This document shows positions 1,161 to 58,873 of a stretch of 64,000 nucleotides of DNA, piece by piece. Every line of letters begins with the position of its first letter. The first letter of the stretch is position 1. Under the pieces are notes generated by a model. The model ran no database searches. It had not been told where the DNA came from and saw only the letters and a list, made by a program, of their open reading frames with translations. The stretch comes from Algimonas porphyrae (GTDB taxonomy: Bacteria; Pseudomonadota; Alphaproteobacteria; Caulobacterales; Maricaulaceae), in NCBI RefSeq assembly GCF_041429795.1, contig NZ_CP163424.1, positions 3,102,001 to 3,166,000 of the forward strand, given 5' to 3'. A program made the translations under genes and the position numbers.

Positions 1161-1844
1161 ATGTCGGATACAAATCTGATTGATCAAACGAAAACTACAT
1201 TGCGTCGTACGCGCTTGGCGTATCTGGGCGCCATCGGCTTGACCTATGACTTCGCGGCTGGCCGCGTCGAGAAACGCCGGGATCAGGTCAAAGCCCTGTT
1301 CGACAATGCCTATGATCGCGGCGAAGATATGGAAGCGGACGCTCGCACCCTGTTCAAGCGCGCGAAGGATGAGGTCGAAGAGTTGGCCGACGATACGGTC
1401 GATGAGCTCGAGCAGACTGTCCAGGATGCGAAAGAAACCGTTCAGGAGCTGAAAGAGGAGATCGTTCTTAAAGTCGAAAAGGCTGACAAACGCGCAGAAC
1501 TGTCCGAGAAGGTCGAGGAGAGCGACAAATATGCGCCTTACCTTGAAAAGGTCAGCGCCTATGACAAAGCCGCCGACCCGATCCACATCATGAAGATTGT
1601 CGATCATCTGGGCGCCGCTCTCAGTTCGCGCGACTCCATGTTTGTTGCCTGCTCCGATGAAACGGAACGCAAGACGGTTGCACGCAACTGGCTACGCAAG
1701 ACGCTGAACGTCGATGGCGATCTCGCAGCGCTGGACGAAAAGGTGCAATCCGTTTGCCAGACCATGAAAGCCGACCGGCTGAAGGATCGCGTCGTATTTT
1801 ACTATCTGGCAGCGAAGGCCGAGGGTAAACTCGACACGCTCTAG
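1161..1844 (+). CDS. Phasin-like coiled-coil protein with C-terminal DUF2853 domain
   Basis: A 227-residue soluble protein. Residues about 1-30 are basic. Residues about 35-120 are a long, highly charged coiled coil rich in E/K/D, resembling phasin/apolipoprotein-type granule proteins. Residues about 122-225 (from KYAPYLEKV through VVFYYLAAKAEGKL) look like DUF2853, a small helical domain usually found alone. GGAGG at 1150-1154 ends 6 nt before the ATG and fixes the start. It sits alone between clpB and a convergent gene. A near match to the CtrA box (TTAA-N7-TTTA, 1134-1148) lies just upstream; this may be chance. A role at polyhydroxyalkanoate or lipid granules is inference only. Confidence 0.75.
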   Translation: MSDTNLIDQTKTTLRRTRLAYLGAIGLTYDFAAGRVEKRRDQVKALFDNAYDRGEDMEADARTLFKRAKDEVEELADDTVDELEQTVQDAKETVQELKEEIVLKVEKADKRAELSEKVEESDKYAPYLEKVSAYDKAADPIHIMKIVDHLGAALSSRDSMFVACSDETERKTVARNWLRKTLNVDGDLAALDEKVQSVCQTMKADRLKDRVVFYYLAAKAEGKLDTL

Positions 1845-1867
1845 GGTCGACCCTATCCCGAGAATAA

Positions 1868-1893
1868 AAAGCCCGGCTGCAAGGCCGGGCTTT
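1868..1893. terminator. Bidirectional intrinsic terminator
   Basis: A 10-bp GC-rich stem (AAAGCCCGGC with its complement) and a 6-nt loop lie between two convergent genes. The T-run is better in the leftward direction (five T after the stem on the minus strand), so it mainly serves the AT-hook gene, and can also end the DUF2853 gene transcript. Confidence 0.8.
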
Positions 1894-1912
1894 GATGGTT
1901 TAAGGGGGGGGC

Positions 1913-2938
1913 TTAGTCTTTCGACTTCGGTCCTGGCTTCTTGCGAGGCGTACCATCCTTTTTCAGCAGATTGCCATCGGCATCGCGCGGGATAGGTTGT
2001 CCTTTTTTCGGGCCGGGCTTGGACCCGCTGGCGCTGGCCTTATTCTTGGATCCTTTCGGACGACCCGGACCACGCTTTGGCGCTGACGCCATACTCGCTC
2101 CGACCGGTTTCGGCTTATTCTTGGAGCCCTTGGGCCGACCGCGACCCCGTTTTGCAGGCGCAGACGATGCTTTTGTCGCAGTCGCTGTCTTGGCTGTTGC
2201 GGCCGCCTTGGGCGTCGCAGCGGTCTTCGTGGTCGACTTGTTCTTGGAACCTTTCGGGCGACCGGGGCCACGCTTGGCGGCGGTGGTTGCGACACTGGCA
2301 GGCGTGGCCTTATTCTTGGAGCCTTTCGGGCGCCCGCGACCCCGCTTCTGGACGGTCGCCTTGTCGATCGCGGACGGTTCCAGCGCCTTGACCGGTGTGG
2401 GTTCATCTTCCGGTTTCGGCGTCGACCCGACACCGAGCGCCGACTCGTCACGATCAATCACCTTGGGCTGTGGCTTGGCCGTTCCAGTGAGAGAGCGGGC
2501 CCGGCTTGTCAGATTTTCAGCCGTGTCCTCGACGGAATGTTTGACATCGTCGAGCGTCGAGCGGGTTTTTTCTGTCGCACTCTTGGTGACTTCGCGGGTC
2601 CGGGACGCCGCCATTTCCGCGGCGCGGCGGGTTTCGGCAATCGGGTCTATATCCGCGAGCTCACTTTTCCCGCCATCGGGGGAGAGATTATCATTGATCC
2701 GGAAGATTGCGACGAAGATCTCGGAAATAATCCGGATCGATACCAGGACCAGCAAGAGTTCCGCAAAGAATCCGACAAATTCGATCAGCGCCGCAAGCGG
2801 ATCGAGCTCGATTGAATCCAGCGCCGTTGCCGAATAGCTCAGCGCCCAGACGATCAATGCCAGCCAGAAGAAGGGGATAACCAGTTTCTCCTTAAACAAT
2901 TTGTCGAAGGAGAAAAAGAAATTGACGAGGTTTTTCAT
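1913..2938 (-). CDS. DUF4282-type membrane protein with four AT-hook repeats
   Basis: 341 residues. The N-terminal 85 residues match the DUF4282 style: an aromatic start, two hydrophobic segments (about 20-40 and 48-78) and the ending IFRINDNLS. A charged helical linker (about 90-150) and an acidic/proline region (155-190) follow. The C-terminal half carries four near-identical AT-hook repeats, KRG(R/P)GRPKGSKNK, at 198-210, 222-234, 263-275 and 288-300, separated by Ala/Thr/Lys-rich spacers, plus weaker KPGP motifs at 307-312 and 334-339. AT-hooks bind the minor groove of AT-rich DNA, so the likely picture is a membrane protein with a DNA-binding cytoplasmic tail. The ATG at 2938 has only a weak Shine-Dalgarno. 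No specific function is known to me. Confidence 0.8.
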   Translation of the reverse strand: MKNLVNFFFSFDKLFKEKLVIPFFWLALIVWALSYSATALDSIELDPLAALIEFVGFFAELLLVLVSIRIISEIFVAIFRINDNLSPDGGKSELADIDPIAETRRAAEMAASRTREVTKSATEKTRSTLDDVKHSVEDTAENLTSRARSLTGTAKPQPKVIDRDESALGVGSTPKPEDEPTPVKALEPSAIDKATVQKRGRGRPKGSKNKATPASVATTAAKRGPGRPKGSKNKSTTKTAATPKAAATAKTATATKASSAPAKRGRGRPKGSKNKPKPVGASMASAPKRGPGRPKGSKNKASASGSKPGPKKGQPIPRDADGNLLKKDGTPRKKPGPKSKD

Positions 2939-3043
2939 TTATATTCGCCCAATTGGAGCCGATGGGAATCACCTGCAACTAACCCAAGCCCATTTCGGTT
3001 CGCAAGCGAATTAAACAATCACAAACACCATAGATAGAAAGAG

Positions 3044-3071
3044 AAAAACCCCACTCGCTGAGCGAGCAGGG
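3044..3071 (-). terminator. Intrinsic terminator of the M23 peptidase gene
   Basis: Read leftward, a 10-bp stem (two G-U pairs, loop TCA) is followed by five T. It lies 25 nt beyond the stop of the M23 gene. Confidence 0.8.
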
Positions 3072-3096
3072 CTTGATTTTAATTAGCGCGCTTTGG

Positions 3097-4515
3097 CTAT
3101 TGCCCGGCCAGCACCGGCATATCCGTCTCGGTGGCCTGTGCGACTCTTAGCGATACAGGCGGGACGGTGACAGGCTGGACCGTGAAGGTGCTGGCCCGCA
3201 TGGCTTCGATCTCACTACGCCGGGATTCGAACTCGGGCATACGGTCGCTCGACAGCGGTTTACCCGACAGCTGGCTGAGTTTGCGCGGATTGATTTTCTT
3301 GCCGTTGTGAATGACTTCATAATGCAGGTGCGGTCCGGTGCTGCGACCGGTTGTGCCGACATAGCCGATGACCTGGTCCTGACGTACGCGCGCGCCCGCC
3401 TTCACGCCGCGCGCAAATCCCTGAAGGTGCGCATAGGCCGTTTTATATCCATCGGTGTGACGGATACGAATATAGTTGCCGAAGCTGCCATAGCGGTTGG
3501 CGCGTTCGACGACGCCGGACCCCGCCGCCAGGATCGGCGTGCCACGTGGTGCGGCGAAATCGACTCCGGAATGCATTTTGCGATAACCGAGAATTGGGTG
3601 TTTACGGCTCCCGAAAGACGATGACAGGCGCGCGCCATTGATCGGTGTCGCGCGAAGCTTGCGTTTGGCCGTCTTGCCCAACGCATCATAATAGTTCTCA
3701 AAACCGTTATCGTCTTCGAACAGCCAGTAATCCATCGTCCTGCCGCGCGGCGAGAAAGAGGTAAAGAGCAGGTCGCCCGCTTTCACGACATCGCCCTTAT
3801 GGTCGCGCGCGACCTCGAAGAAGAGCTCGAATTCATCCCCCGGCTGAATGTCTCGCTGAAAGTCGACGGAATATTCGTAAATACTCGCAAATTGCGCCAC
3901 GACCTTGTCAGGCGCGCCCAGGCGCGTTGCATCGACATAGAGAGAGTTTGCGATCGACGCTTTCACTGCCATCATTTCGTAGCGGAACTCCGCATTGACT
4001 GCGCGTGATGTCCAGTCCGCACCTTGGCGCGAAACGAACACTGTCTGTTCCGCGGACGGACGGAAGGTGACGTCTGTAATCGTATCGCCTGAGAGATGCA
4101 GGTTAAAGCTCTGACCGGCGCGCAGACGGCGCGGCGAGAACTGTTCGGAAAATGCCTGAACAAAACGGTGCGCATCCGGCCCGCTCATCCCTTCGCGTTG
4201 CAGAAGCGGCCCGAGATTATCTCCGGGCTTGAGCGTGACTTCACGCACCGCCAGTTCGGGGGCGGCGAATTCTTCGGCGAGAGCCATGTCGAAGCGGGCC
4301 AAATCGAGAGTCGGCACCGGAAGAGCGGTGGCCTCGGCGATCGTGACCGCGTCAACCCCGTCATCGGTCGTCGGCAGCGCCATCAGGCCGACCAGCGCGA
4401 CAGCGCCGAAAACGCAAAGCGCCTTGATGCCATTACCGGCTGGCACGCGCGTCGAACTATATTGACCGAAAGCCTGCATGCGAACGGCAAGCGCGGATTT
4501 AAGGGTATTCTTCAT
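3097..4515 (-). CDS. M23-family peptidoglycan DD-metalloendopeptidase, membrane anchored
   Basis: 472 residues from the ATG at 4515, preceded by AGGA; an upstream in-frame TTG at 4551 lacks support. One membrane segment at about 29-48 puts the rest in the periplasm. Residues about 93-110 (VTLKPGDNLGPLLQREG) resemble the LysM/OapA-type region seen in MepM/YebA-like hydrolases. The C-terminal peptidase domain (about 300-415) has the LytM zinc motifs: H315-x3-D319 in HSGVDFAAP, H363 in YAHL, and the HLH pair at 396-398. It probably cuts peptide cross-links of peptidoglycan during growth or division. It is divergent from the YdbH-like gene; the shared upstream region contains GTTAACCAT at 4611-4619, which resembles a CtrA half-site. 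Confidence 0.9.
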   Translation of the reverse strand: MKNTLKSALAVRMQAFGQYSSTRVPAGNGIKALCVFGAVALVGLMALPTTDDGVDAVTIAEATALPVPTLDLARFDMALAEEFAAPELAVREVTLKPGDNLGPLLQREGMSGPDAHRFVQAFSEQFSPRRLRAGQSFNLHLSGDTITDVTFRPSAEQTVFVSRQGADWTSRAVNAEFRYEMMAVKASIANSLYVDATRLGAPDKVVAQFASIYEYSVDFQRDIQPGDEFELFFEVARDHKGDVVKAGDLLFTSFSPRGRTMDYWLFEDDNGFENYYDALGKTAKRKLRATPINGARLSSSFGSRKHPILGYRKMHSGVDFAAPRGTPILAAGSGVVERANRYGSFGNYIRIRHTDGYKTAYAHLQGFARGVKAGARVRQDQVIGYVGTTGRSTGPHLHYEVIHNGKKINPRKLSQLSGKPLSSDRMPEFESRRSEIEAMRASTFTVQPVTVPPVSLRVAQATETDMPVLAGQ

Positions 4516-21505: not shown

Positions 21506-21943
21506 TTAGAGCGCTTTTTCCAGCGCATCGGCAAAGCGTTCGCCCTCGCGCGCATCCGTATAGGCTTTTTGCAGCAGTTCGCGCGTGCCAGGCTGGATGG
21601 CCGCATCGTTCAGGCAGGCCTCGATTTTTTCGGCCAGATACTCTTCGCCGTCATCGATGGCTTCGATCGCAGCCTTTTCATCATCCGCGAACAGCGTCGT
21701 AAACGATGTCCAGGCCCGGTGTGCCGCGCCCGCGACAGAGCCGGATGTGGACGGCTCGCCGCCCAGTGTCCGCACATGACTTTGAAATTCCTGGATCAGC
21801 GCGGCGCGACGCTCGGCACGGTCACGGAAATTGCTTTGCAGCGCATAGCTGTCATCCGACACGTCAACGCAGGTTTCGTAGCCCTTATGGCTGTCGATCA
21901 GCGTCTTGGTCACATCGTTGAGAATATCGATATCATTGGTCAT
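21506..21943 (-). CDS. PA2169-like four-helix-bundle protein (DUF2383)
   Basis: 145 residues. A predicted ferritin-like four-helix bundle rich in charged residues, with the DUF2383 style of DILNDVTKTLIDSHKGYE at the start, LIQEFQSHVRTLGGEPSTSGSVAGAAHRAW in the middle and a helical C-terminus ending in ALEKAL. GGAGA lies 7 nt before the ATG. The function of the family is not established; stress association has been suggested by others. It is a single-gene unit with its own terminator. Confidence 0.85.
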   Translation of the reverse strand: MTNDIDILNDVTKTLIDSHKGYETCVDVSDDSYALQSNFRDRAERRAALIQEFQSHVRTLGGEPSTSGSVAGAAHRAWTSFTTLFADDEKAAIEAIDDGEEYLAEKIEACLNDAAIQPGTRELLQKAYTDAREGERFADALEKAL

Positions 21944-22073: not shown

Positions 22074-22970
22074 GTGCCGACCGATCCGAAAACACCAAGC
22101 CTGTCCCTGTCGCAGCATTTCGCGCGCGAAGTCGGCAGCCTGTCTCTGTCCGACACGGACAGCCCGTCAGAGGCGGTCGGCGCGGTACGCCGCGTGCTCG
22201 ACCGGACGGCGGCCCGCTACGCCCGCGCGACGACCGACCCGCAGCTGCAACGCGCCGGGCAATGGCTGATCGAAATCGTCAAATCCGGAACCGGGCTGAT
22301 CGACAGGGCCAGCCATGCCGACATCGTCTGGGACGAAGTTGCAGCCAAACCCGGCTTTTCCGTCAAGCTGCGGCCGTCTCTGTTCTATGGCGGGGCTTTG
22401 CTGCTGGGCGCGGCAGGTCTGGTGCAGGGTGTCGGTCTCGCCGTCTGGGGCGCATTCGGACTTGCAGCGCTGCATGCGGCCTCGACAATCAATCTGACTC
22501 ATTTGCCGTTCTGGCCCCGCCCGACGGCAATCGAAGACGCGCAGGGACGCCGACACAAGGCGAGCGCCGTCGTCCGGCTGGATCAGGCCGGACTGATTTC
22601 GCAGGTCACCAACTCGCTGAAAACCGCCGATCACATTCTGCTGCGCCTGTCCGCCCCGGTGACGGAGGCGCACTGGCATGACGATCCGCGCCTGACGGCC
22701 CTGCTGCAAGGGTTGCTGGAAGCGGGACGGGCCGATGACGAAGCCTACGCGCTGGAACTGGCGCGGCGCGAACTGCCGACCCTGATCGAAGGCGCAGGGC
22801 TGCGGCAGGTCGATTATTCGAAAAAGACCGCCGACTGGTTCGACCGTCTGCCTGCCCCCGCATCAGCTGATGAGCCCGGTCTCGCCGCATTCGAAACGGC
22901 AGCGCCCGCCCTCGTCACGGATGATGGCCGGGTCGTGCGGCGCGGGACGGTCTGGGTGCGCAGCAGATGA
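22074..22970 (+). CDS. Uncharacterised membrane protein paired with the Hsp70-like gene
   Basis: 298 residues, GTG start at 22074 with no strong Shine-Dalgarno. The N-terminal part (1-100) is helical and polar. A hydrophobic region at about 103-135 could be one long or two short membrane helices. A soluble C-terminal part (150-298) ends with VVRRGTVWVRSR. I recognise no family. The stop overlaps the start of the Hsp70-like gene (ATGA at 22967-22970), so the two are translationally coupled and probably work together at the membrane. Confidence 0.75.
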   Translation: MPTDPKTPSLSLSQHFAREVGSLSLSDTDSPSEAVGAVRRVLDRTAARYARATTDPQLQRAGQWLIEIVKSGTGLIDRASHADIVWDEVAAKPGFSVKLRPSLFYGGALLLGAAGLVQGVGLAVWGAFGLAALHAASTINLTHLPFWPRPTAIEDAQGRRHKASAVVRLDQAGLISQVTNSLKTADHILLRLSAPVTEAHWHDDPRLTALLQGLLEAGRADDEAYALELARRELPTLIEGAGLRQVDYSKKTADWFDRLPAPASADEPGLAAFETAAPALVTDDGRVVRRGTVWVRSR

Positions 22971-24880
22971 CGACACGCAACGCCAAGGACATCGAATTTA
23001 TCGGCTTCGATCTCGGCCACGGCGAGACCGCGCTCGCCCGCGCTTTTGCGCAGGGCCATTCCGAGCCTGAAATTCTGGAATATCGCGGCACGCGCAGCCT
23101 TGTCACGGCGGTCGCCAAGGACGGGCGCGCCGTACGGATCGGCGCGGAAGCGCTCAGCCTGTCCGATGCACGGATCTGGGCGAAGTTCAAATCGCCCGAT
23201 CTCGACGCGCCGGATGTGCGCGAACCGCTGACCCTGTTCACCAAGGCGCTGGTCGACGGGCTGGCCAAGGACGGCTCGCTGCGCGGCGCGCAGGAAAGCC
23301 GCTTTCTGATCGGTTGTCCATCGGGCTGGACCGAAGACACGCGGGAACGCTACCGGAATCTTTTCATGCGCGCGGCCGGGTTGAAACAGGCCCGTATCGT
23401 GTCCGAATCGCGGGCTGCGCTGATGACGGCGCTGGAACAGGGCTATCTGTCGATGGACGATGCGCGGGCATCCGTCCTGATCGTCGACATTGGCAGCTCG
23501 ACGACCGACTTCACCTATTGCCGGGATCTGGAAGCCGACGATGTCGGTCATAATGTGCTCGGCTCCGGCCTGCTGGACCGGGAAATCCTCGACCTCAATC
23601 TGTCCCGGCAGCCACAGCGCAAGGCTATCGACGCCCTGTTGAAGGCCCATCCCTCCTATCGGCCCATTCTCGAATATTGGTGTCGCGAGGCCAAGGAAGC
23701 CTATTTTACCGGCGAGGACAAACCGGTCGAGATGATCCGTCGGCTGCCCGTTGCGGGCGGGAAGAGCGTTCTGTTCGAAATCCGCATCGACAAGACTGAC
23801 GCCGATGCCATCCTGTCCAAACCGCTGGTTGCCCTGCATGATTATAGTTGGGCCGGCGCATTCGATTACGCCCTGCGCGAGACGATCGAGCGGTTGGGCG
23901 GGCGGGATCCGGACACGGTCCTGCTAACGGGCGGGGCGTCGCGCCTGCCGCTCGTCTTGCCGGCCACGAAAAAGGCCTTTCCGAAGACCCGTGTAATTCG
24001 GGGCGCGGAACCGGAATTTGCCATTGCGCGCGGCCTGGCCTGGCTGGGCCGGTTCGAATTCCTCCACGCCAGCTTCAAGTCGGAAGTCGGCGCGCTGATG
24101 CAGCCCGACGGTGCCGTGACGGACCTCGCCTCCAAGGCCGCCCTGTCGCTGGGCGAGACCCTGGCGCCGGCTCTGGTGGACGGTCTGACCGAGGATTGCA
24201 TCAAACCCGCCTTCCGCAGCTGGCGATCCGGCACGATCGCCTCGCTCGATGCGGTCGAAGCGACCTTGACGCAATCGGTCGCGGACTGGTTGCGGTCGGA
24301 CACGGCGCAGGCCAAGCTGAAGCCCGTCATTGGACGCTGGTTCGCGGGATTACAGCGCGACATCGAGACCATCACCGACCCGCTTTGCCGCGAACACGGC
24401 TTGCCCGCCATGGTGCTGAGCCTGGATGACAGCCAGCATGTCAGCCAGCATCTGGAAGGGATGAGCCTGTCCGCCCCGTCCATCGGCCATCTGGAGGCGG
24501 ATACGGCCCTGCTGGGTACAACATTGGCCGCCATTCTGGTCAGTGCCTTGCTGGCCCATGCTAATCTGTTTGCGCCCTTATTGATGAACCCGCTCGGCCT
24601 GTTGATTGGCGGGGCCGTGGCGGGCGGCAGTTTTCTCTATGGCAAACGTGCGCTTGCTGGACGTTTCCGCGGGGCCAAGGTCCCGGTTCTGGCGCGGCAG
24701 GTCCTGACGGAAAAGCGCATCGATCAGGCGATCGCCAAGCAGCGACCCGATCTGATTGCCGCCGTGCGCAAAGCCTGGGATGGACACGCCTCGGAACGGT
24801 TTTCCGAAGACCTGACCGACATGCTGGGCCGGGCGCTGCTGGATCGCGCCGATGAGCGCGCCGTCCTGTTCCTGATCTGA
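22967..24880 (+). CDS. Hsp70-family ATPase with C-terminal membrane segments
   Basis: 637 residues. The actin-like ATPase core carries phosphate-1 (FDLGHGET, 14-21), phosphate-2 (VDIGSSTTDF, 173-182) and the adenosine motif (LLTGGASRLP, 319-328). After about residue 365 it departs from DnaK: no recognisable beta-sandwich substrate domain or EEVD-like tail, but a helical region and two hydrophobic stretches at about 515-533 and 538-558 that look like a membrane hairpin, followed by a basic 75-residue tail. It is coupled to the upstream membrane protein. It is distinct from canonical DnaK and HscA, and its client is unknown. Confidence 0.82.
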   Translation: MTTRNAKDIEFIGFDLGHGETALARAFAQGHSEPEILEYRGTRSLVTAVAKDGRAVRIGAEALSLSDARIWAKFKSPDLDAPDVREPLTLFTKALVDGLAKDGSLRGAQESRFLIGCPSGWTEDTRERYRNLFMRAAGLKQARIVSESRAALMTALEQGYLSMDDARASVLIVDIGSSTTDFTYCRDLEADDVGHNVLGSGLLDREILDLNLSRQPQRKAIDALLKAHPSYRPILEYWCREAKEAYFTGEDKPVEMIRRLPVAGGKSVLFEIRIDKTDADAILSKPLVALHDYSWAGAFDYALRETIERLGGRDPDTVLLTGGASRLPLVLPATKKAFPKTRVIRGAEPEFAIARGLAWLGRFEFLHASFKSEVGALMQPDGAVTDLASKAALSLGETLAPALVDGLTEDCIKPAFRSWRSGTIASLDAVEATLTQSVADWLRSDTAQAKLKPVIGRWFAGLQRDIETITDPLCREHGLPAMVLSLDDSQHVSQHLEGMSLSAPSIGHLEADTALLGTTLAAILVSALLAHANLFAPLLMNPLGLLIGGAVAGGSFLYGKRALAGRFRGAKVPVLARQVLTEKRIDQAIAKQRPDLIAAVRKAWDGHASERFSEDLTDMLGRALLDRADERAVLFLI

Positions 24881-24967: not shown

Positions 24968-25543
24968 ATGTTCGGGGACCGTATTTTCTATCCGCTGGCA
25001 GCCATGGTCATCATCGCCATGGTCGGGCTGGCCCTGTCCTTTGCCGGCAATACGCCTCTGAGCGATCAGGACATCGTCAATGAGGGATTGAGCCTGACCG
25101 GACCCGACCTGCTGGCCCTGACGATTTCACCCGGATCGAACGGCACCTATGTCGAGGAAGGCGGCGGCTATATGCGGCTGTCGCAATTCACGCCCAAGGG
25201 TGAAGGCCCGGCCTCGATCGGTGTGTTTTTGACGCTGGGTCCGGATTATGAGCGCGCCTTTTCCGGACGCAGGTTGCGCGTCACGCTGCGCGCACGTGCG
25301 CCACGCATCGACGCGCTGGAGCAGTTCGAGTCGGCCTATTATCCGATGGAATCACGGCGGTCGGACTGGTTCCAGTTCAATCTTGGCCCGGACTGGCAGG
25401 ACTATACGTTCGATTTCATGCCGCCGATCACGGATAATCCGCCCAATGTGGATCTACTGGCGATTTTCCCGGGCGTCGCCGGCGAGTCGCGGCAGATGGA
25501 TCTGGCCGCGTTAAACATCGAAGTGCTTGTCCCGGAGACATAG
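24968..25543 (+). CDS. Uncharacterised single-pass membrane or secreted protein
   Basis: 191 residues. A membrane segment or signal at about 8-28 is followed by a beta-rich domain with many aromatic residues (YMRLSQF, FFQFNLGPDWQDYTFDFMPP, VDLLAIFPG). The strand pattern resembles galactose-binding/CBM-like jelly rolls, but that is only a resemblance. It is 87 nt after the Hsp70-like gene on the same strand and ends just before the convergent AGE-family gene. Confidence 0.7.
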   Translation: MFGDRIFYPLAAMVIIAMVGLALSFAGNTPLSDQDIVNEGLSLTGPDLLALTISPGSNGTYVEEGGGYMRLSQFTPKGEGPASIGVFLTLGPDYERAFSGRRLRVTLRARAPRIDALEQFESAYYPMESRRSDWFQFNLGPDWQDYTFDFMPPITDNPPNVDLLAIFPGVAGESRQMDLAALNIEVLVPET

Positions 25544-27805: not shown

Positions 27806-28624
27806 CTATTCGATTTCGGACAGCAGGCGCGGATCCGTGACCAGCTGGCGGACGCCGTGGCTTTCCGTTTCGTTGAAGACGTTCCCGGCTTCGGCCCAGC
27901 GATGCAGGGAGTTGATGTCAAGCTTCGCGCACGTCGGGCGGACCGACCATGTCACCTTGAGCGGCGAGCAGGTCTGCTGATCGAAGCTCGGTCCTGTCGT
28001 GGAGCCGCGGAAGACGATCGGCTCGCCCGTATTGGCTGGGATCATCATCGGCTGATCGAGGCCGTTCACCTCCGCACCCGTCCAGTCCATCGTCGTGAAG
28101 TCGAGCGCATTGCTGTCATTGACGACGAGGAACGTCTGCGCTTCGACGCGCAGCAGCGGGTCGGTACAGGTGTCGGACAGGCAGGAGCCGAGACCCTCGC
28201 CCGGATCGATATCGCAGGAGGTATGCACCCAGTGCACCTCGATCGTGTCGCCCGGCTTGACCTTGCCATAAGCGCCCGGAGCCGGAGCCAGTTCGGCGGC
28301 GGTCAGCTCGTCCGTGCCATTACAGGCATAGCCGCCATAATCGCTATCATCGACGAAGACGGAAAAGCCCGGCCCTTTATGTTCGGCGTTGGTGTGCGTG
28401 TGAATGTTGCAGAGGTTCATCTCGGACGAGGCCGGGGCCATCTGGAACATATCCGGGTTCGTGCCCGTCCTCAGGGAAATATCGCGCGGCGTCTGCGGAC
28501 CGAAGGTCGTACAGACATTCTCCGCCGCCGCCATCGTCACGGTTTCCGTCTCTTCGGCCATTTCCGCCGTCGTACACGCACCCACAAGAGCCGCAGCCCC
28601 CACCATCAAAGCCACTCGTTTCAT
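27806..28624 (-). CDS. Delta-class carbonic anhydrase, lipoprotein
   Basis: 272 residues from the ATG at 28624, with GGAG 8 nt upstream; an earlier in-frame start at 28648 is less likely. The lipobox VGAC (16-17 residues in) predicts an outer-membrane or periplasmic lipoprotein. The mature part has CTTFGPQTPRDIS, NLCNIHTHTNAEHKGPGFSVF and IEVHWVHTSCDIDPG, with clustered histidines and several cysteines as in delta-class carbonic anhydrases, zinc enzymes known from diatoms and also predicted in marine proteobacteria. It would interconvert CO2 and bicarbonate outside the cytoplasm. It is a single-gene unit with its own terminator. Metal ligand assignment is inference from the motif. Confidence 0.85.
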   Translation of the reverse strand: MKRVALMVGAAALVGACTTAEMAEETETVTMAAAENVCTTFGPQTPRDISLRTGTNPDMFQMAPASSEMNLCNIHTHTNAEHKGPGFSVFVDDSDYGGYACNGTDELTAAELAPAPGAYGKVKPGDTIEVHWVHTSCDIDPGEGLGSCLSDTCTDPLLRVEAQTFLVVNDSNALDFTTMDWTGAEVNGLDQPMMIPANTGEPIVFRGSTTGPSFDQQTCSPLKVTWSVRPTCAKLDINSLHRWAEAGNVFNETESHGVRQLVTDPRLLSEIE

Positions 28625-28853
28625 TGGTTCCACTCCAAACCGGTTCACATGCGTTGTTACGTCGCAGATAAAGAGATGGTTTCAGAAAAGCGAGATTAGG
28701 CGATGTATATTGTGTCTATGGTTTCGATAGGGTGGGGCTATAAGATATAGCCCTGACTTGCAAAACGCGTTCCTTTACAAAAAGCCCCCAGAGCGGTCAG
28801 CATTCATAGAAAAAATAGAGTCCAAAATCATATAAATTTCGCAAAGCTACACT

Positions 28854-58153: not shown

Positions 58154-58873
58154 ATGGCTGGTGATATCGAGAACGGAAACAGCGTCCCCGGAGCGGGGGG
58201 CATGGATGAATGGGATGCCCTGCAGGCGCAGATCGACGCGGAAGGCGAAGGTCAGCCCGAGCGCAAACCGAGCGCGGCCGAGCTGAAGCGGGCCGCCGAC
58301 GACTTTCTGAAAAAACACAAGGACGATGTCCTGTCCGACGACGATCCGGCGGGTGAGCCCGGCGCAGACGCGGCAACGGACGACACGCCCGACGATTCCG
58401 CACGCGTCCGTGAGCTGGAAATGGAAATCGCGACCATGAAGGATCAGGCCATGCGCACACTGGCCGAGGCCGACAATATCCGCAAACGCGCAGAACGCGA
58501 AGTGCAGAACGCCAAGCTATACGGGGTCGAGAAATTCGCCGCCGACATGCTCTCCGTCTATGATAATCTGTCCCGCGCGCTGCACACGATCGATGGTCAG
58601 GCCAAGGAAGAGCTGGGCGAGAATGCCCGCAACCTCGTCGCCGGGATCGAGCTGACCGAAAAGGATCTGACGACGGCGCTGGAACGCCATCAGGTCAAAC
58701 CCGTCCCCGGTGTCGGGGCCAAATTCGACCCCAATGTCCATCAGGCCGTCGCCAACATCCCCCACCCGGATGTCGAGAAGGGCCATGTCGCCGCCGTCAT
58801 GCAGCAAGGCTTCACCATCGGCGGTCGGACGCTGCGCGCCGCCATGGTGGCTGTGAGCACGGGTCAAGGCTGA
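58154..58873 (+). CDS. grpE: Nucleotide exchange factor GrpE
   Basis: 239 residues. The long N-terminal acidic coiled region (1-95) and the GrpE core (AEADNIRKRAEREVQNAKLYGVEKFAADMLSVYDNLSRAL, GIELTEKDLTTALERHQVKPVPGVGAKFDPNVHQAVANIPHPD, MQQGFTIGGRTLRAAMVAVSTG) are complete. GrpE releases ADP from DnaK. GGAG sits before the ATG. An inverted-repeat-bounded cassette begins 15 nt after its stop. Confidence 0.95.
   Translation: MAGDIENGNSVPGAGGMDEWDALQAQIDAEGEGQPERKPSAAELKRAADDFLKKHKDDVLSDDDPAGEPGADAATDDTPDDSARVRELEMEIATMKDQAMRTLAEADNIRKRAEREVQNAKLYGVEKFAADMLSVYDNLSRALHTIDGQAKEELGENARNLVAGIELTEKDLTTALERHQVKPVPGVGAKFDPNVHQAVANIPHPDVEKGHVAAVMQQGFTIGGRTLRAAMVAVSTGQG

Follow-up and report, generated by a model that had tools for sequence, protein, structure and literature searches.

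Which kind of machine is encoded when the gene of an Hsp70-like ATPase begins inside the gene of a membrane protein is the question raised by a locus of Algimonas porphyrae. The locus lies at 3.12 Mb of a 3.17-Mb, single-contig host genome, in the window analysed here (the whole stretch of 64,000 nucleotides), and an earlier note had read it as a dedicated membrane-associated ATPase system with an envelope or membrane-remodelling function. The gene pair is present as claimed there, and both open reading frames were found, overlapping by ATGA, which makes translational coupling likely. The features referred to below are listed here, all positions being those of the window.

22074-22970, plus strand: partner gene (GTG start), a 298-residue membrane protein with a helical N-terminal part, a predicted membrane hairpin and a GrpE-like C-terminal domain
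22967-22970, plus strand: ATGA in which the partner's stop codon and the ATPase's start codon overlap, a likely site of translational coupling
22967-24880, plus strand: Hsp70-like ATPase gene (ATG start), 637 residues (PF00012, E=4.9e-6; 20-sequence alignment)
22374-22487, plus strand: predicted partner membrane hairpin, residues 101-138 (AlphaFold helices 101-118 and 121-138 with a short loop; hydrophobic segment 106-124)
22659-22967, plus strand: GrpE-like partner domain, residues 196-298, two helices followed by a small β-domain ending RVVRRGTVWV (Foldseek 4ani_A, VIA 3a6m, hhalign)
22988-24067, plus strand: Hsp70-type nucleotide-binding domain of the ATPase, residues 8-367 (VIA Z 22-25 to DnaK, Hsc70 and Sse1; profile match to DnaK structures, E=3.5e-12)
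24113-24502, plus strand: helical region replacing SBDβ, residues 383-512 (predicted model)
24503-24661, plus strand: predicted ATPase membrane hairpin, residues 513-565 (hydrophobic segments 514-532 and 534-552; low-pLDDT region; alignment)
24710-24877, plus strand: long C-terminal helix of the ATPase, residues 582-637 (predicted model)

Differences by codon position number 91/49/286 between the ATPase and its counterpart at locus L042 and 61/30/134 between the partner and a close relative. Given this excess of changes at position 3 and the maintenance of both open frames in orthologues, both are taken to be real genes. The closest named loci belong to Algimonas, with 84% ATPase identity, and from such relatives the host is placed in the Algimonas/Hellea group of the Robiginitomaculaceae.

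Pairing and distribution of the two genes

Both genes are carried by 28 of 100 sampled relatives, adjacent every time and patchily distributed within the family; of the remainder, one genome has a distant ATPase by itself and another a mere 19.7-bit partner match. Profiles drawn from both groups detected the partner immediately upstream of the ATPase, on the same strand, in 87 of 89 loci (Robiginitomaculaceae, cyanobacteria and Thiomargarita), a count that does not represent independent events since the loci were gathered mainly by ATPase similarity and two lineages dominate. The earlier reading hinged on a partner standing next to the orthologues, and synteny places it there in nearly all of them. 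At one exception (L108) the contig stops 95 bases before the ATPase, while at the other (L060:8678-10687, minus strand) a distant ATPase with a hydrophobic segment has no recognisable partner upstream despite room for one.

A scan of species genomes recovered ATPase relatives in cyanobacteria (mostly Nostocales), a Thiomargarita MAG and a Bacteroidetes MAG, full-length or near full-length and about 30-37% identical. Outside Robiginitomaculaceae the partner is the sole neighbour common to nearly all loci (33 of 34), and in cyanobacteria the flanking genes differ by group while the pair persists. The system is sporadic, because seven clear members were found in a sample of 194 cyanobacteria and a phylum-wide search of 398 Pseudomonadota returned only the window's own copy and background Hsp70 relatives. 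A partner search across the class gave no member outside the window's family.

Both genes also occur, annotated as hypothetical proteins, on a conjugative plasmid of Calothrix brevissima (AP018209.1, L242:5027-7932). There the pair sits between phage-type integrase genes, a setting that suggests mobility of the pair. Viral contigs yielded no relative, a search of phage records found none of one cyanobacterial partner, and neither protein has a match to a PADLOC defence system.

Nucleotide-binding domain and C-terminal half of the ATPase

The HSP70 family (PF00012, E=4.9e-6) passes its curated Pfam cut-off for the ATPase and is the sole family to do so, MreB_Mbl being sub-threshold; against the NCBIfam DnaK and YegD-type models the protein scores far under the cut-offs. 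A profile of 14 diverse members identifies DnaK among solved structures (E=3.5e-12), and residues 8-367 of the predicted model align by VIA with DnaK/Hsp110-type domains at Z 22-25 (about 24) over about 320 residues, all 50 VIA matches listed being Hsp70/Hsp110-type chains. MreB and Mbl occur among the Foldseek matches of the model. In the tree the family forms its own clade (100/99), separate from DnaK, HscA, MreB and the DUF2760-linked Hsp70, with several long branches that leave relations beyond the family clade unsure.

Residues D15, K75, E147, D174, T179, GG322-323 and R326 are invariant across the family alignments and, on our reading of the motifs, would pair with DnaK motif residues. 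The equivalence of K75 to DnaK K70 is the least certain of these assignments, the automatic alignment with DnaK being poor in that stretch. The phosphate-1 loop is DLGHGET-like throughout the family versus DLGTTNS in DnaK, with TT replaced by HG. The earlier statement that the Hsp70 ATPase motifs are intact needs correcting for this loop.

Beyond residue 377 the model contains helices only, with no strands in residues 383-637 and low confidence for residues 501-570. No β-sandwich substrate-binding domain (SBDβ) is present in the model, and no DVLLLD-type interdomain linker follows the nucleotide-binding domain in alignments with DnaK. The proposal that the substrate half is replaced by a helical region and a probable membrane hairpin is borne out by this all-helical stretch and its hydrophobic segments (514-532 and 534-552), structure prediction having returned no ordinary Hsp70 substrate domain. 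J-proteins act through the Hsp70 interdomain linker, and the missing linker suggests that the ATPase may be J-independent; it could still use a distant J-protein. None is encoded beside the pair, the genome's five DnaJ-domain genes lying at 0.54-2.54 Mb versus 3.12 Mb for the pair. Housekeeping DnaK-DnaJ, HscA and GrpE are separate genes elsewhere in the genome, the single canonical GrpE gene being found in the window at 58154-58873, far from dnaK.

Hydrophobic hairpins are predicted in both proteins, though not in every family member: the hydrophobicity threshold used gave no segment for 12 of the 87 partners and for 3 of the 87 ATPases. Both hairpins have short loops and basic flanking residues. 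According to the positive-inside rule basic flanks of membrane segments lie on the cytoplasmic side, suggesting that both termini of each protein are cytoplasmic. In a distant cyanobacterial pair (L188:510-1442 and 1480-3498) neither protein has a hydrophobic segment at this threshold, and the pair may be a hairpin-less or soluble variant.

The partner and its probable GrpE-like end

Nothing in Pfam, NCBIfam or PADLOC matched the partner. Its model (pLDDT 82.7, pTM 0.50) comprises a helical part, the hairpin (101-138), helices 205-219 and 223-240, and then short strands; the hairpin consists of two helices (101-118 and 121-138), and a hydrophobic segment lies at 106-124. A resemblance of its end to GrpE, by which Hsp70 is recharged with ATP, was noticed by eye before the tests (FD..LP, then RVVRRGTVWV versus RTLRAAMVAV). 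The top Foldseek match of the model in the PDB is GrpE 4ani_A (E 0.96, weak alone). Residues 204-298 align by VIA with Thermus GrpE 3a6m (Z 7.0, rmsd 3.2, 83 residues), where a Z below 8 can reflect a common arrangement and a Z of 7 is within the range of unrelated small folds, and VIA also aligns the partner with E. coli-type GrpE 1dkg_A and human GrpEL1 9blt_C (Z 4.6). Eighteen VIA rows of unrelated pre-60S assembly factors outrank GrpE, on residues 1-195, a different part of the model.

By hhalign, the C-terminal domain scores 39.2 against 37 GrpE sequences with divergent members included (P 1e-5, probability 82%) and 33.7 without them, the P values being somewhat optimistic because the domain boundary was chosen after the first runs. 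Column shuffles (n=60) against the GrpE set without divergent members gave means of 12.5-13.0 and a maximum of 24.5, and among 30 other real families tried none exceeded 24.1 (the score of 251.8 in the control list is the partner family itself). A full-length, broad partner profile compared with GrpE under a non-default option gave a poor alignment (probability 11.6%). The Pfam GrpE model (PF01025) matched none of 12 partner sequences, and the domain is for this reason called GrpE-like and not GrpE; the partner profile compared by sequence with solved structures found no GrpE, only chance interferon matches. We conclude that the C-terminal ~100 residues probably resemble GrpE, a supported likeness rather than a proven homology. 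The partner, earlier called unrecognised, most likely carries a GrpE-like exchange domain, as indicated by Foldseek, VIA and hhalign.

Two other gene arrangements bear a likeness to this one. In a Gammaproteobacteria-type pair (L213:2451-3125, minus strand; also L214 and L216-L222) the gene of a membrane-anchored DUF2760 protein lies immediately upstream of one for a divergent Hsp70-family ATPase, as in the pair described here, but the membrane protein is of another family (PF10816) and the linked ATPase falls outside the clade. The DUF2760 protein ends in a slightly GrpE-like HKGWKA...VLAPAEVEL. Compared by hhalign it showed no significant similarity to the window's partner family, and as a GrpE-like candidate it reached P 0.016 at best, not significant, with a low-diversity profile (Neff 1.8). 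At L215 a GrpE-family gene (728-1405; Pfam E 2.2e-17) overlaps a DnaK-like gene (1387-3165).

Proposed mechanism, alternatives and novelty

We consider it reasonably probable, from sequence and predicted models, that a membrane-tethered Hsp70-type ATPase and a dedicated, membrane-tethered GrpE-like exchange factor form one machine. In the ATPase, the Hsp70 nucleotide-binding domain would stay in the cytoplasm, and the hydrophobic hairpin would anchor the protein to the membrane from within the helical region that stands at the C-terminus in place of the peptide-binding domain. The partner, anchored in that membrane through a hairpin of its own, would offer its GrpE-like domain to the ATPase and, acting as a nucleotide exchange factor dedicated to it, would open the nucleotide-binding domain, free ADP and reset the cycle. 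Under the ATP cycle the helical C-terminal region would move, or its contacts with the partner or a putative membrane client would switch. We infer partner-ATPase binding, nucleotide exchange by the partner and a membrane or envelope client. A need for GrpE, about which the earlier note had asked along with a need for a J-protein, would probably be met by the partner itself; for the latter no gene lies near the pair. The earlier view of a dedicated membrane-associated ATPase and not a general chaperone gains from the adjacency in 87 of 89 loci and from the model lacking SBDβ, while the membrane-remodelling or specific envelope function proposed with it found no supporting evidence in this analysis.

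The genes around the pair were considered for a third component. A 191-residue protein (24968-25543) with one N-terminal hydrophobic segment and a DRxFYPL motif is encoded by a gene that adjoins the pair in 18 of 21 loci; it possibly has a carbohydrate-binding fold, with weak matches to xylanase modules (E 0.15). This candidate was downgraded, the family being widespread in the order and present in 71 of 100 relatives, mostly without the pair. At 11 loci a gene for a conserved, apparently secreted protein of about 155-260 residues (L041:7802-8269, plus strand, and relatives), not seen there in the window, is inverted between the ATPase and 191-residue protein genes. The window also encodes a DUF2383 ferritin-like protein (21506-21943, minus strand) just upstream of the pair on the opposite strand and a delta-type carbonic anhydrase (27806-28648, minus strand; PF10563, E 2.8e-64).

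The reading is challenged most directly at the partner, which might be a plain membrane anchor or scaffold whose resemblance to GrpE is chance or distant shape, exchange being spontaneous or due to another protein. The weak Foldseek match (E 0.96), the absence of GrpE from Pfam scans of the partner and the possibility that a small helix-plus-beta domain is a common arrangement are consistent with an anchor; yet independent structure and profile comparisons point to the same family, the hhalign score is well over all shuffles and unrelated control families, and the partner domain was found here solely beside an Hsp70-type ATPase, and we regard this alternative as somewhat unlikely. A membrane partner is also common among actin-like ATPases bound to membranes, and with MreB and Mbl among the Foldseek matches and MreB_Mbl sub-threshold in Pfam the pair could be a filament or motor ATPase of the actin/MreB/PilM kind plus its membrane adaptor, for cell shape or surface-structure assembly. 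That Hsp70 alone passes the Pfam cut-off, that all VIA matches listed are Hsp70/Hsp110-type, that the partner resembles an Hsp70 co-factor, that the genome's own MreB is at a separate locus and that in the tree MreB falls outside the family, although its branch is long, make this quite improbable. An ordinary chaperone of the DnaK, HscC or YegD kind with a merely diverged substrate domain would account for the Hsp70 nucleotide-binding domain, but not for the lack of SBDβ in the model, the lack of a DVLLLD-type linker, the conserved hairpin or scores far under the NCBIfam DnaK and YegD-type cut-offs, and it is the least credible alternative, with hardly any weight left to it.

That the pair works for the neighbouring sugar genes, as part of a system that assembles polysaccharide or envelope, is a further possibility; it concerns the client and is compatible with the membrane-machine reading. 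In the window the pair has among its neighbours an N-acylglucosamine 2-epimerase gene, a sugar-nucleotide epimerase gene and one for a carbohydrate-binding-like membrane protein, found respectively at 11, 7 and 18 of 21 Robiginitomaculaceae loci including the window. A DnaK system is tied to polysaccharide secretion in Nostoc, where a DnaK1-DnaJ3-GrpE set links pili to polysaccharide, but that set (PMC9239167) is a canonical one, different from the window's system. Since the nearest neighbour family is mostly found in relatives without the pair, and neighbours differ in cyanobacteria, the link from neighbouring genes carries little weight and we consider such a system unlikely.

The machine thus proposed shares with DnaK-GrpE an Hsp70-type nucleotide-binding domain and, probably, a partner with a GrpE-like helical and small β-domain, but differs in an ATPase without SBDβ or interdomain linker and with the phosphate-1 loop DLGHGET, in predicted membrane hairpins in both proteins, and in having no J-protein gene near while housekeeping DnaK and GrpE are encoded elsewhere. 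The ATPase has weak NCBIfam matches to two divergent ATPases of the Hsp70/ParM-like kind, PRTRC system protein D and YegD, mostly in the adenosine motif region, but it scores far under the cut-offs of those models, and neither is known to have a hairpin or a GrpE-like partner. With PilM, FtsA and MreB it shares the ATPase superfamily fold and membrane attachment; PilN and FtsZ are the partners in the PilM and FtsA systems, whereas here the best structural matches are Hsp70 and the partner resembles GrpE.

No description of the ATPase-partner system was found in the open-access literature. The building blocks are of known kinds; what appears undescribed is their combination, in which both proteins have membrane anchors and the ATPase lacks a substrate domain. 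Our tentative suggestion, at a little under even confidence, is that the pair represents a separate class of Hsp70-type machines embedded in the membrane and occurring at least in Alphaproteobacteria, Cyanobacteriota and Gammaproteobacteria. In this class a substrate-domain-less ATPase and a membrane-tethered GrpE-like factor would act as a two-component switch on membrane components without a J-protein. The usual view of Hsp70 is of a soluble chaperone that binds peptides with an arm, is triggered by a J-protein and is served by a soluble exchange factor. If the proposal is true, an arm-less, membrane-fixed Hsp70 with its own membrane-bound exchange factor would represent the ATPase cycle repurposed as a membrane switch, and because sequenced cyanobacteria and marine alphaproteobacteria carry it as a strict two-gene unit, the idea can be tested directly.
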